A DNA stretch of 64,000 bases from Leucobacter aridicollis. GTDB lineage: Bacteria; Actinomycetota; Actinomycetes; Actinomycetales; Microbacteriaceae. Position numbers and translations under genes: made by a program. Positions 13,986 through 18,072 of this stretch are shown one piece after another; the first letter of the stretch is position 1; the number at the start of each line of letters is the position of its first letter. The DNA lies in assembly GCF_024399335.1 (NCBI RefSeq), contig NZ_CP075339.1, positions 2,666,001 through 2,730,000 on the forward strand, written 5' to 3'. The notes beneath the pieces were generated by a model. It worked only from the letters and a program-made list of their open reading frames with translations, did no database searches and was not told the DNA's origin.

Positions 13986-14031
13986 AAAAACCCTGGCGGC
14001 CGGCAGGAAGACTTCCCACCGACCGCCAGGG
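13986..14031 (-). terminator. Rho-independent terminator after prfA
   Basis: On the minus strand a stem of 12 to 13 base pairs (CCCTGGCGGTCGG with CCGGCCGCCAGGG, one mismatch) is followed by TTTTT, seen as AAAAA at 13986-13990 on the plus strand. It ends the prfA transcript before any downstream gene. Confidence 0.88.
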
Positions 14032-14046
14032 TCCATAGCCCGAAGA

Positions 14047-15120
14047 CTACTGTCCGAGCGCCTTCAGCCGCTCTTCCTCGTCCATGCGGATGCAGGACTC
14101 GATAAGCGGTTCCATCGAGCCGTTCATCACCTGGTCAAGGTTGTACGCCTTGTACCCTGTGCGGTGATCGGCGATGCGGTTCTCGGGGAAGTTGTACGTA
14201 CGAATCCGCTCCGAGCGATCCATCGTACGGATCTGGCTCGACCGGTGAGCGCTTGCTTCGGCGGCAGCTTCCTCGGCGAGGCGAGCGAGCAGGCGTGCGC
14301 GAAGCACGCGCATGCCAGCCTCACGGTTCTGCAGCTGCGACTTCTCGTTCTGCATCGCAACCACAATGCCCGTCGGAAGGTGGGTGATGCGCACCGCCGA
14401 GTCTGTCGTGTTCACGGACTGACCACCGGGGCCACTCGAGCGGTACACGTCAATCTTGAGATCGTTCTGACTGATCTCGACCTCTTCGGCTTCGTCGGGC
14501 TCAGGGTACACGAGTACGCCTGTCGTCGAAGTGTGGATGCGCCCCTGCGACTCGGTGACTGGCACGCGCTGCACGCGATGCACACCGCCTTCGTACTTGA
14601 GGTGCGCCCAGACGCCCTGGGACGGATCACTTGCGTTGGCCTTGATCGCGACCTGCACGTTCTTGTAGCCGCCGAGATCGCTCTCGTCCTTCTCAAGAAT
14701 CTCGGTCTTCCACCCCTTGGACTCCGCGTAGTGCATGTACATGCGCAGCAGGTCAGCGCCGAACAACGCCGACTCGGCTCCGCCCTCGCCGCCCTTAATC
14801 TCAAGAATGACGTCGCGAGCATCGTCGGGATCCCGCGGGATCAGCAGTCGGCGAACCTTCTCCTGAGCCTCGGCGAGCTGCGCCTCGAGGTCTGGGACCT
14901 CTTCGGCGAACGCCTCGTCTTCCTTCGCGAGCTCACGCGCGGCTTCGAGGTCGTCTGCCAGCTGCACCCAGTGCTCGTGGGCCGACTTGATCTTGCTGAG
15001 CTCAGCGTAGCGGCGGTTGACCTTCTTGGCCCGCGCTGCGTCAGCGTGCAGCGCGGGATCCGCGAGGTCCTCTTGCAGTGATGCATGCTCAGCGAGCAGC
15101 CCAGCAACCTGTTCAAACAC
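14047..15120 (-). CDS. prfA: Peptide chain release factor 1
   Basis: RF1 recognises UAA and UAG and hydrolyses peptidyl-tRNA on the ribosome. The 357 residues carry the GGQ motif in [17 protein letters not shown] and the stop-codon tripeptide PVT in [11 protein letters not shown], which separates RF1 from RF2. It starts 12 bases after the rho stop, as part of the thr-rho-prfA gene run. prmC, which methylates the GGQ glutamine, does not follow it here. Confidence 0.97.
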
Positions 15121-15132
15121 GTACGGTTCCCC

Positions 15133-16992
15133 TTAGAACGAGAGGGTGTACGACTTCTCCGCGTTGACCTCAGGAGCCTGCCGGCTGCCCGAGACCTTCA
15201 CGAAGCTGTTCACCGCTGGAACGAGCGCACGGAGCAGGTCCTTGTCGCTGTCGACACCCGTGTGCGTGCGCGCGGTGGCGAGGAGCGTGAGCGACCCACC
15301 GTTCTCAAGGTTCCGACCGGCGCCAAGCAGACGCTTCGCGTGAGCGATCGGCAGGGCCTGAGCTGCCTCAGGAGTCGTGCGGGTGCCCTGCAGGTTCTGC
15401 TGGGTCGCATGCACGAGGTCGGTGAGCGAATCGAGCAGCACAATGACGTCGTGCCCGAGCTCGACGAGTCGGCTCGCGCGATCAAGCGCAAGCTCAACGA
15501 TCGTGGTCTGGTCTTCAGACGCCCGATCGAACGTAGCCGCAATGACCTCGCCGCTGACGGTTCGCTGCAGGTGCGTGACTTCCTCGGGGCGCGCGTTCGT
15601 CAGCACGAGCAGAAGGTGCGCGTCGGGAGCGTTCGCGGTGACTGCCGCGGCAAGTTCGGCAAAGACGCGCGCGGCTGGAACCTCGGCGGGCAGCGCAAGG
15701 AGCGCGCGCTGTCCGAGCCCCATCGGAGCTGCGGCATCAATCGCGGCGCCCAGACCCTTCTCGCCGTTTGCGAAGCGGAGGGGCTGCTCGGGGAAGATCG
15801 CGGGCATCTCTGCGATGTCTGCGCGCTTCTCGGTCTCTTCAACGGGCTTTCCATTGACTGAGTCGATCTTGACGATCGCGTTGTACTTCTGGCGGCCGCC
15901 GCCGTCACCCTCGCGGGGCTGGCGGATAGCGCCGACAATGGCGTCGCCACGACGGAGGCTGTACTTCTTCACCTGACCGAGTGCGACGTACACGTCTGAC
16001 ACGCCGGGGAGGTAGCCGCTCGTGCGCACGAAAGCGTAGTTGTCGAGCACGTCGAGGATACCGGCGACGGGAAGCAGCACGTCGTCTTCCGCGATCTCTG
16101 GCTCGAGGTCATCGCCGCCACGACGCTTACGGTCGCGCTGACGGGTGCGGCTCGAGCGCGAACCGTTCTCCTGCTTGTTGTCTGAGCGGTCGCCCTGGCC
16201 CTGCTTCTCCTGGCCCTGCTTGTCCTGGGCCTGCTTCTCGTTCTGGCCCTGCTTGTCAGCATCGCCCTTCGCTGCATCGCCCTTCGCGGCGTCTGACTTC
16301 GAGCCGTCTGACTTCGAGCCGTCTGACTTTGCAGCGTCGCCCTTAGCGCCGTTCTGGTTGCCGCGACCGCGGCCCTTCGGCTCGTCAGTCTGCGCCGGGC
16401 TTTCGCCCTCGGCCTGGTCGGCAGTCTGGCTCGAGCGGCGGCGCGAACGCTTTGCAGGAGCCGCCTCGGCGTCTTCAGCCGGTGTCTCTGCGGCCTTCGC
16501 CTCGGAAGCTGCGGCGGGCTGCTCTGCTGCCTCGGCGTCAGCTGGAACCTCGACGGCAGGAGCCTTGCGCGAGCGAGTTGCGCGCTTCTTCGGCGCCTCA
16601 ACTGGCTTCTCGTCGGCGGTGTTCTCCGTGGCGACCTCTGCGGACACGGGCGCTTCGGCAGCCTCAGCCTTCGCCGAGGCGCGCGTCTTCTTCGGAGCGG
16701 CAACCGCATCGTCGGCCTCGGCAGCTGGAGCCTCGGGCTCCGCCTTCTTCCGAGCGCGGCTCGCACGCTTCGGCGCCGCCTTCTCGGCAGGAGTCTCGGC
16801 TGGCGCGTCAGCCTGCGCAGCTGCGGGTGCGGCCGCAGCTGCTGCGGGCTCTCCGGCTGCCACAGCTGCATCAGCTGCGACCTCGGGGGCCGCGCCAGCT
16901 GCTGCCGAGACGCGCCGCGATGCGCGGCGGCGAACTGGAGCGGCTTCAGCCGCCTCCGTGGCAGGCGTCTGGTCTTCAGTGTGTTGTTCCAC
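15133..16992 (-). CDS. rho: Rho-like protein with degenerate ATPase centre
   Basis: The 619 residues have a long Ala/Lys/Asp-rich disordered region (1 to about 300), then a well-kept Rho OB fold (LLPVAGILDVLDNYAFVRTS from residue 306), then a RecA-like domain recognisable by TFDRASEDQTT and VELGHDVIVLLDS. Canonical Rho has PPKAGKT as Walker A; here residues 434-441 read LPAEVPAA with no lysine. The IDERPEE segment with the catalytic Glu reads TNARPEE (N466, A467), DSITR reads DSLTD, the Q- and R-loop segments are replaced, and the protein stops at about the arginine-finger region, some 60 residues early. The frame is open and the gene lies at the normal rho locus, so it is either a rewired RNA-binding protein or a decaying Rho. 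ATP-driven termination is not expected. Confidence 0.85.
   Translation of the reverse strand: MEQHTEDQTPATEAAEAAPVRRRASRRVSAAAGAAPEVAADAAVAAGEPAAAAAAPAAAQADAPAETPAEKAAPKRASRARKKAEPEAPAAEADDAVAAPKKTRASAKAEAAEAPVSAEVATENTADEKPVEAPKKRATRSRKAPAVEVPADAEAAEQPAAASEAKAAETPAEDAEAAPAKRSRRRSSQTADQAEGESPAQTDEPKGRGRGNQNGAKGDAAKSDGSKSDGSKSDAAKGDAAKGDADKQGQNEKQAQDKQGQEKQGQGDRSDNKQENGSRSSRTRQRDRKRRGGDDLEPEIAEDDVLLPVAGILDVLDNYAFVRTSGYLPGVSDVYVALGQVKKYSLRRGDAIVGAIRQPREGDGGGRQKYNAIVKIDSVNGKPVEETEKRADIAEMPAIFPEQPLRFANGEKGLGAAIDAAAPMGLGQRALLALPAEVPAARVFAELAAAVTANAPDAHLLLVLTNARPEEVTHLQRTVSGEVIAATFDRASEDQTTIVELALDRASRLVELGHDVIVLLDSLTDLVHATQQNLQGTRTTPEAAQALPIAHAKRLLGAGRNLENGGSLTLLATARTHTGVDSDKDLLRALVPAVNSFVKVSGSRQAPEVNAEKSYTLSF
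16259..16345. repeat. 15-base tandem repeats in the linker of rho
   Basis: Units of 15 bases related to GTCTGACTTCGAGCC (16291, 16306, 16321) and to GCATCGCCCTTCGCT (16259, 16274) encode the repeated KSDGS and AKGDA pentapeptides in the disordered N-terminal region. Such repeats are prone to length change. Confidence 0.7.
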
Positions 16993-17115
16993 GTGTATTC
17001 CTTCCGGAACCTATCGAGTCTGAGCACTCAGGCCAGAAACAGGCACGAGAGTGCGGGAAGCTCGGGGACAAATACCCCGGCTGGGAATTCGATCCGGGAC
17101 ACAAACTAGGAAGTG

Positions 17116-18072
17116 TCACACTCGCGAAGAGAACGCAGAGTCGACCGGGATCTCCTCTACTGTAGCACCCTTGATATCAACAGCGAGGGTAAGAATTCGC
17201 CATTCGGGCGCGATCTGCGCGACAAGATCCGCCGCCGCGAGGCGTTCGCGCGGCCCGTTCGAGAGCACGAGCACCGAGGGCCCGGCACCCGACACGACCG
17301 CAGGATGCCCGGCCTCGCGGAGCGCGCCGATGAGATCCCGCGTCGCTGGCATTGCAGCCCCACGGTAGTTCTGGTGCAGCCGATCCTCCGTCGCCTCAAG
17401 CATGAGTTCGGGGCTCTGCGTGAGTGCCGCGATGAGGAGCGCCGAACGTGAGACGTTAAAGACTGCATCCTCGTGCGGCACCTGCTTCGGTTGCAGGCTG
17501 CGTGCGTGCTCGGTCGACATCGTGAACGTCGGCACGAGAACGAGTGGCGCGACGCCACGGTGGACGAGGAGGCGCTTGAATCGCGGCCCCTGTTCGTTCG
17601 TCCAGGCGATCGTCAGCCCCCCGAAAAGTGCTGGCGCGACGTTGTCAGGGTGCCCCTCCAGTTCAGTCGCAAAGGCGAAGATCTGGGCCTCGCTCAGCTC
17701 GAACGGGTTGACGGGGTCGCTCGCGAGGAGTCCGGCCGCAATCATGACGCCAGAGACGATCGCGGAGCCCGATGAGCCCATGCCGCGACCGTGCGGGATA
17801 CGGTTGTGCGCCTCGATGTTCAGCCCGGGCATGTCGCGCCCGAGTCGCTCGAACACAAATGCGGCCGACCGCACAACGAGGTTGCGCTCGTCGGTGTCAA
17901 CCTCGCCCTCGCCGACGCCGATCACCGTGACAGTCGCGCCAGGCTCGGGGCGGGTCACGACGACGAGCTCGTCACCGTACGCAAGCGCGATGCCGAGGGT
18001 GTCAAAGCCGGGCCCGAGGTTCGCGCTCGTCGCTGGAACGTGGACGCGAAGCGCTCGCTCGACGCGGCTCAT
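17116..18072 (-). CDS. thrB: Homoserine kinase
   Basis: ThrB phosphorylates homoserine for threonine synthesis. The 318 residues show the GHMP-kinase plan: N-terminal VPATSANLGPGFDTLGIAL, and the ATP loop IPHGRGMGSSGSAIVSG near residue 90. It overlaps hom by four bases (ATGA), so both are coupled. thrC, the next pathway step, is not between hom and thrB as it is in M. tuberculosis and must be elsewhere. Confidence 0.96.
   Translation of the reverse strand: MSRVERALRVHVPATSANLGPGFDTLGIALAYGDELVVVTRPEPGATVTVIGVGEGEVDTDERNLVVRSAAFVFERLGRDMPGLNIEAHNRIPHGRGMGSSGSAIVSGVMIAAGLLASDPVNPFELSEAQIFAFATELEGHPDNVAPALFGGLTIAWTNEQGPRFKRLLVHRGVAPLVLVPTFTMSTEHARSLQPKQVPHEDAVFNVSRSALLIAALTQSPELMLEATEDRLHQNYRGAAMPATRDLIGALREAGHPAVVSGAGPSVLVLSNGPRERLAAADLVAQIAPEWRILTLAVDIKGATVEEIPVDSAFSSRV

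Follow-up and report, generated by a model that had tools for sequence, protein, structure and literature searches.

The only Rho of Leucobacter aridicollis has lost its motor centre and is probably retained as an RNA-binding pseudoenzyme

In this study, we characterized the rho gene in a window of 64,000 nucleotides (positions 2,666,001 to 2,730,000 of contig NZ_CP075339.1) from the complete chromosome of Leucobacter aridicollis, which comprises 3,604,182 bases in one contig. The protein encoded at this locus is the only Rho homologue of the genome, and the centre that drives the Rho motor has been lost from it (Table 1). At the level of sequence, we could show its orthology and position, the loss of the centre, an intact primary RNA-binding site with its basic tail, purifying selection, the single copy and the recurrence of this state in relatives. 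We propose that this protein is probably a pseudoenzyme, that is, an orthologous and sole Rho that has lost ATP hydrolysis and translocation and has been kept as an RNA-binding protein. As is characteristic of pseudoenzymes, its catalytic residues are lost while the fold is under selection together with another function, which in this case we infer.

The gene lies between thrB and prfA, the conserved place of Rho, and the full-length open frame that the first-pass annotation of the window had described at this position was confirmed. A profile search of the complete genome returned one rho-grade match; the next-best match reached 36 bits and lay in a 489-codon frame that was taken for an ATP synthase subunit. 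When the protein was compared with the sequences of solved structures, all the matches listed were Rho chains and Mycobacterium tuberculosis Rho was the best of them (1.1e-89), and the same protein (7oqh) was the best match in both sequence and fold. The curated Rho model TIGR00767, however, gave only 265 bits against its cut-off of 509. The closest named proteins come from L. aridicollis (95% identity) and are annotated as a hypothetical protein in one case and as Rho in another. No Rfam match was found near the rho gene. On the minus strand at 13990-14032, just 3' of prfA, a hairpin of 20 pairs with TTTT behind it resembles an intrinsic terminator and would close the rho-prfA stretch; a scan for hairpins with T-tracts found three sites of this kind, compared with 2.1 in shuffled sequences.

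Table 1. Coordinates of the rho gene, its parts and its neighbours in the window
Feature	Position	Strand	Description
thrB	17116-18072	-	Upstream neighbour of rho; yardstick and tree marker
Shine-Dalgarno-like GGAAGGA	16999-17005	-	6 nt upstream of the rho GTG start; read from sequence
rho	15133-16992	-	Open reading frame, 619 aa, GTG start; only Rho homologue in the genome, without its motor centre
N-terminal extension	16090-16992	-	Residues 1-301; rich in Ala, Glu, Lys and Arg
Basic patch RSSRTRQRDRKRR	16120-16158	-	Residues 279-291, immediately before the OB fold; conserved
OB fold, primary RNA-binding site	15838-16068	-	Pfam Rho_RNA_bind, residues 309-385
RecA-like domain without motor centre	15136-15837	-	Residues 386-619
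Former Walker A	15670-15693	-	Residues 434-441, LPAEVPAA; P-loop in intact Rho
Former Asp and catalytic Glu	15592-15597	-	Residues 466-467, Asn-Ala; Asp-Glu in intact Rho
Walker B strand VIVLLDSLTD	15418-15447	-	Residues 516-525; Asp (D521) kept
prfA (RF1)	14047-15120	-	Downstream neighbour of rho; yardstick and tree marker

Alignment with intact actinobacterial Rho revealed neither an intact P-loop nor a catalytic Glu in the window protein. APPKAGKT of intact Rho is replaced by LPAEVPAA, in which no GK[TS] can be read, and VDERPEEV by TNARPEEV, which puts Ala467 in the place of the catalytic Glu. The Q-loop stretch (TRTTPEAAQA versus SGRILSGGVDA in intact Rho) and the R-loop stretch (HTGVDSDKD versus ETGSKMDEV, with the R-loop Lys lost) are unrelated to their counterparts, so that the secondary site of an active motor is not recognizable, and DSLTR of intact Rho has become DSLTD. 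These readings agree with those made from the window alone for the Walker A segment, the Asn-Ala pair before RPEE, both loops and the Walker B region. The additional claim that every catalytic part is changed proved too broad: it holds for Walker A, the catalytic Glu, the Q- and R-loops and the arginine finger, but the Walker B Asp521 is kept as in an active motor, and Arg468 is kept at the Arg-valve position. Similarly, the protein does end early near the arginine finger, with SYTLSF, but the shortfall is about 50 residues rather than the 60 first estimated (the model aligns to E. coli residue 368, and full chains have up to 419 residues). The complete C-terminus is thus missing and no Arg occupies the arginine-finger column, where the alignment is loose; the early end is common to six species, the window species and five relatives. 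The RecA-like fold itself is retained, as indicated by a profile match of 33 bits and by an AF2 model with its PDB match to Rho, for which 13 of the 38 rows of the input alignment were intact Rho.

The OB fold had been described as nearly intact, and this is borne out by a PF07497 (Rho_RNA_bind) score of 81 bits, the cut-off being 27, and by letters that read as in intact Rho. The N-terminal helix bundle, which would occupy the profile up to about position 43, was not detected, as the match begins at profile position 43-44; this absence is not diagnostic, because some Rho proteins over the cut-off (G128 and G104) also begin near 43-46. The long N-terminal extension, a feature shared with other actinobacterial Rho, is probably disordered, with I, L, M, F, W, Y or V making up 11 of the 295 residues counted. 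Of 40 Leucobacter Rho, 39 carry the basic patch at the end of the extension as RTRQR[DE]RKRR, and the gene of the remaining one (G006) is interrupted by the edge of a contig; similar patches are present in genera with intact Rho.

Comparison of the same locus in related genera showed that loss of the centre extends through the genus and recurs outside it. A Rho-profile search of 60 relatives, 36 of them congeners, gave one rho-grade match in each of 35 congeners; the matchless one is a 72%-complete assembly. We aligned these 35 with four more Leucobacter Rho from a family survey and with the window protein, the N-terminal parts of two genes (G017 and G006) being cut by contig ends. The Walker A Lys is kept in nine of these 40 proteins and the catalytic Glu likewise in nine, with Ala in its place in the other 31; according to the motif tables, both residues are absent from the same 31. 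The Walker B residue is Asp in 38 and Glu in two, the Arg valve is kept in 17, and the two OB residues checked are kept in all 40. The nine P-loop keepers form a graded set of states: G017 and G020 retain the P-loop and DERPEEV with His at the arginine-finger column, and G010 and G347 retain GKST with SERPEEV. The former P-loop letters vary among species, with no new common motif. Among Leucobacter-type protein clusters (the best 120 of 7,966 matches), Lys is kept in 32, Glu in 31 and both in 30, and all 120 agree at six positions of the primary RNA-binding site. The matched Rho region is free of stops throughout Leucobacter apart from G004, whose matched extended frame has a stop ahead of the open 733-codon part that was used. 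A genome assigned to another genus code (G109, g72) and a Microbacteriaceae metagenome-assembled genome (L088) fall inside the Leucobacter tree, among the P-loop keepers.

In the family survey, 343 of 398 sampled genomes pass the Rho cut-off, and a Rho-family match is present in 349 of 350 high-quality genomes, so that the gene is almost never absent. We fetched Rho from 30 of the survey genomes, 24 of them below the cut-off and three represented by contig-end fragments. The P-loop Lys is lost in all five Canibacter genomes (g27 in the survey; the genus name rests on the identity of one protein with that of C. zhoujuaniae) and in the three genomes examined of the nine surveyed from the freshwater genus g88; in g48 the Lys is lost and the Glu kept, and in g34 (two genomes) and g39 (one) the Glu is lost and GK[TS] is readable. 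A genome of 0.9 Mb (G073), which we take to be probably Tropheryma, encodes a Rho in which Arg replaces the Walker A Lys and the catalytic Glu is lacking, at a locus with a GC content of 0.483. In Rho of the freshwater Microbacteriaceae type, Lys is replaced by Arg, Glu by Gly and the C-terminal region is missing in 88 of 88 clusters, none of which keeps Lys or Glu, and the same six primary-site positions are again invariant in all 88. This freshwater group, with its uniform short Rho, represents a second clean pseudo-Rho lineage.

On a quick tree of prfA and thrB (87 rows, two contig-end-cut Rho genes left out), the Lys state changed at least four times and the Glu state at least six times, and the two OB residues did not change. 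A single clade of all 41 Lys-less rows was rejected (p-AU 0.000134, with long branches present). Independent loss in Leucobacter and Canibacter was not supported, as a clade uniting the two was not rejected (p-AU 0.405). In a wider sample of Actinomycetota, taken outside the family and limited to genomes with a completeness of at least 95%, the Rho cut-off is passed by 330 of 398. Among 16 low-scoring Rho fetched from this sample, those of f24, f47, f50, f59 and f79 lack Lys, Glu or both, and two of f73 keep both. In the distant f59 and f79, AGVRPEE replaces DERPEE and the P-loop is kept in some and altered in others; these Rho-like proteins are possibly other motor-dead types. In the same survey, 27 of the 398 genomes gave no Rho match at E 1e-25; among the 20 of these that were listed, f38 accounts for 11 and f62 for four.

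We estimated dN/dS by the pairwise Nei-Gojobori method with sums over pairs, and the values serve for comparison only, because pairs are non-independent and dS is high in some groups. In the window clade (six species, 15 pairs), dN/dS is 0.214 for the N-terminal extension, 0.013 for the OB fold and 0.104 for the RecA-like domain, compared with 0.038 for prfA and 0.067 for thrB. Both domains are far below the value near 1 that is expected of a gene free of constraint. The corresponding values for a further 19 motor-less Leucobacter, out of 25 outside this clade (171 pairs), are 0.417, 0.081 and 0.295, with 0.104 for prfA and 0.149 for thrB. For the OB fold, the RecA-like domain and prfA, respectively, we obtained 0.111, 0.258 and 0.072 in seven of the nine P-loop-keeping Leucobacter, 0.095, 0.268 and 0.051 in Canibacter (n=5) and 0.052, 0.144 and 0.090 in g88 (n=3). 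In groups with intact Rho, the same three values are 0.029, 0.037 and 0.071 in Cryobacterium (n=17), 0.000, 0.010 and 0.017 in Agreia (n=6), 0.043, 0.052 and 0.175 in Clavibacter (n=4), 0.013, 0.060 and 0.041 in Subtercola (n=2) and 0.026, 0.022 and 0.084 in Labedella (n=2). Relative to these five intact groups, in which the OB fold ranges from 0.000 to 0.043, RecA values are about 2-10 times higher in the window clade and about 5-30 times higher in the 19 other motor-less Leucobacter. Therefore, the OB fold of the window clade is as tightly constrained as that of working Rho, whereas the RecA-like domain is relaxed yet far from neutral. This region-specific purifying selection and the invariant primary-site positions support the earlier suggestion of a non-catalytic Rho kept for RNA binding, with binding predicted.

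The main alternative is slow decay, in which Rho would be dispensable in the clade, the gene a relic and the OB fold merely the last part to go. The relaxed constraint on the RecA-like domain in every motor-less or intermediate group is in line with such decay and counts against a pseudoenzyme, as does the relaxation of the OB fold outside the window clade. Outside that clade, the OB fold is under mildly weaker constraint than in intact Rho and, for P-loop-keeping Leucobacter and Canibacter, under weaker constraint than prfA; among the 19 other motor-less Leucobacter, values per 20 codons of 0.02, 0.01, 0.11 and 0.28 place the relaxation mainly in its later part. This mild relaxation speaks somewhat for decay, as do truncations of differing length in the window clade and the freshwater group and the drift of former P-loop letters between species. 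However, in the window clade the OB fold is more constrained than both neighbouring genes, and residues 422-481, which cover former catalytic stretches, are constrained again (20-codon pN/pS 0.16, 0.14 and 0.02). The invariance of the primary site in both the Leucobacter-type clusters (the best 120 matches) and the freshwater clusters, the scarcity of stops in Leucobacter and the near-universal presence of the gene in the family likewise argue against a relic. We regard decay as unlikely, and the earlier preference for a retained protein over a plain pseudogene is supported.

Far less probable is an ATP-dependent Rho with an unorthodox nucleotide site. The Walker B Asp and, in part, the Arg valve persist in Leucobacter, the RecA fold is kept and nine of the 40 proteins still carry Lys and Glu, all of which speaks for such a site. 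Against this stand a former P-loop that varies by species without any new motif, Ala in place of Glu in 31 of the 40, a window clade devoid of the arginine-finger region and the uniform Lys-to-Arg and Glu-to-Gly replacements of the freshwater forms. The earlier suggestion of a non-catalytic partner of a second, catalytic Rho is refuted for the assemblies searched, as a search for a second rho with an intact P-loop found none in the complete genome and the congeners with a match have one each. An assembly error or frameshift, which had been raised as a possible objection, is likewise refuted, because the same centre loss occurs in separate assemblies of 30 congeners besides the window, the C-terminal end is common to six species and codon-level constraint is kept in frame.

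How would a pseudoenzyme Rho act? The OB fold and basic tail would bind pyrimidine-rich nascent RNA, and the retained RecA fold would still hold subunits or partners together, but translocation would be impossible. The most likely mode is a passive one, in one of two forms: RNA polymerase might be held or trapped through the RNA and through contacts of the N-terminal domain, giving motor-free pausing or termination, or untranslated RNA might be coated by a chaperone or in a condensate. E. coli Rho is described in PMC8828861 as contacting RNA polymerase via its N-terminal domain. As this is the part retained here, the kept parts would be those that grip RNA and contact RNA polymerase, and the lost parts those that burn ATP and pull RNA. 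We can only tentatively suggest that, by binding RNA polymerase and nascent RNA, a motor-free Rho ends or restrains transcription with no hydrolysis of ATP, and a role in RNA chaperoning, coating or condensate formation seems about equally possible. Motor-free termination is disfavoured by a report (PMC4499133) that an ATP-hydrolysis-competent site is required for M. tuberculosis Rho to disrupt elongation complexes, although an earlier and contrary report of termination with non-hydrolysable analogues is cited there.

If the Rho motor is lost, intrinsic terminators might be enriched in compensation. Using a home-made gene finder on 400 kb per genome, we compared two motor-less genomes, the window genome (G000) and G016, with two genomes called intact by Rho score (G142 and G327). 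Convergent gene ends had a hairpin with a U-tract behind them in 4 of 88 and 4 of 120 cases in the motor-less genomes versus 9 of 118 and 8 of 102 in the intact ones, and in same-strand gaps of more than 100 bases the counts were 4 of 87 and 2 of 77 versus 7 of 69 and 10 of 82; the rates in shuffled sequences were 1.6-2.4% and 1.2-3.2%, respectively. Thus, no enrichment was found in the two motor-less genomes relative to the two intact ones and, if anything, such hairpins were fewer. Counting every type of strong hairpin (z < -2) at convergent gene ends revealed no pattern (20.5% and 9.2% motor-less versus 5.1% and 20.6% intact). A lower purine share of genes, described for rho-less Bacilli in PMC13323073, was not seen in these four genomes (0.497 and 0.497 motor-less versus 0.487 and 0.488 intact), a sample too small to settle the matter. 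NusG is present in all 14 genomes examined, and in an alignment covering 11 of them (six Leucobacter versus five intact relatives; the motor-less g88, g39 and Canibacter were left out) its KOW part is nearly unchanged, which decides nothing, since NusG has other roles. Owing to the ATP-site requirement in M. tuberculosis and the lack of terminator enrichment, confidence in any one mechanism is limited, and how transcripts end is a puzzle.

The window protein resembles Rho of the TIGR00767 family (M. tuberculosis 7oqh, E. coli 1pv4 and 3ice) in locus, OB primary site and RecA-like fold, and differs in lacking Walker A, the catalytic Glu and recognizable Q- and R-loops, in being about 50 residues short and in scoring below the cut-off; we class it as a Rho pseudoenzyme variant outside the active-motor family. 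Its model also matches the fold of F1-ATPase alpha. In F1-ATPase alpha and in pseudoenzymes, hydrolysis is not needed for the retained role, and this offers an analogy; however, F1 alpha works beside catalytic beta subunits, whereas no catalytic partner Rho was found in this genome. A long disordered N-terminal region is also found in Bacteroides thetaiotaomicron Rho, whose phase separation is said to raise Rho activity (PMC10284900), whereas the motor of the window Rho is lost. Bacilli without rho are alike in living without a Rho motor, but their gene is described as lost (PMC13323073), whereas Leucobacter keeps the gene with its RNA-binding half under selection. In PMC8828861, Rho is described as an ATP-driven ring whose catalytic residues are highly conserved even in divergent Rho, and as a protein that high-GC actinobacteria, among them M. 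tuberculosis and Micrococcus luteus, cannot do without. Among open-licence full-text literature, in which top-ranked papers were judged by title and the start of the abstract, we found no report of a motor-dead natural Rho. The 2013 study by D'Heygere and colleagues, which surveyed the phyletic distribution of Rho, may hold a hint of such forms. A sole, motor-dead and selected Rho that has arisen more than once was not found in the literature searched and appears to be a new combination of familiar parts.

In summary, most Leucobacter examined carry a sole Rho without its motor centre, and their relatives stand at several stages of loss; together they constitute a natural experiment that sets RNA binding apart from the motor. 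This makes testable whether translocation is needed for the cellular job of Rho and how transcripts are ended in a high-GC genome without a Rho motor, and it indicates that annotation of a gene as Rho does not imply Rho-dependent termination. If motor-free action by this Rho is true, trapping of elongation complexes would be separable from translocation and would have evolved more than once, in cells that have no Rho motor and show no enrichment of intrinsic terminators.
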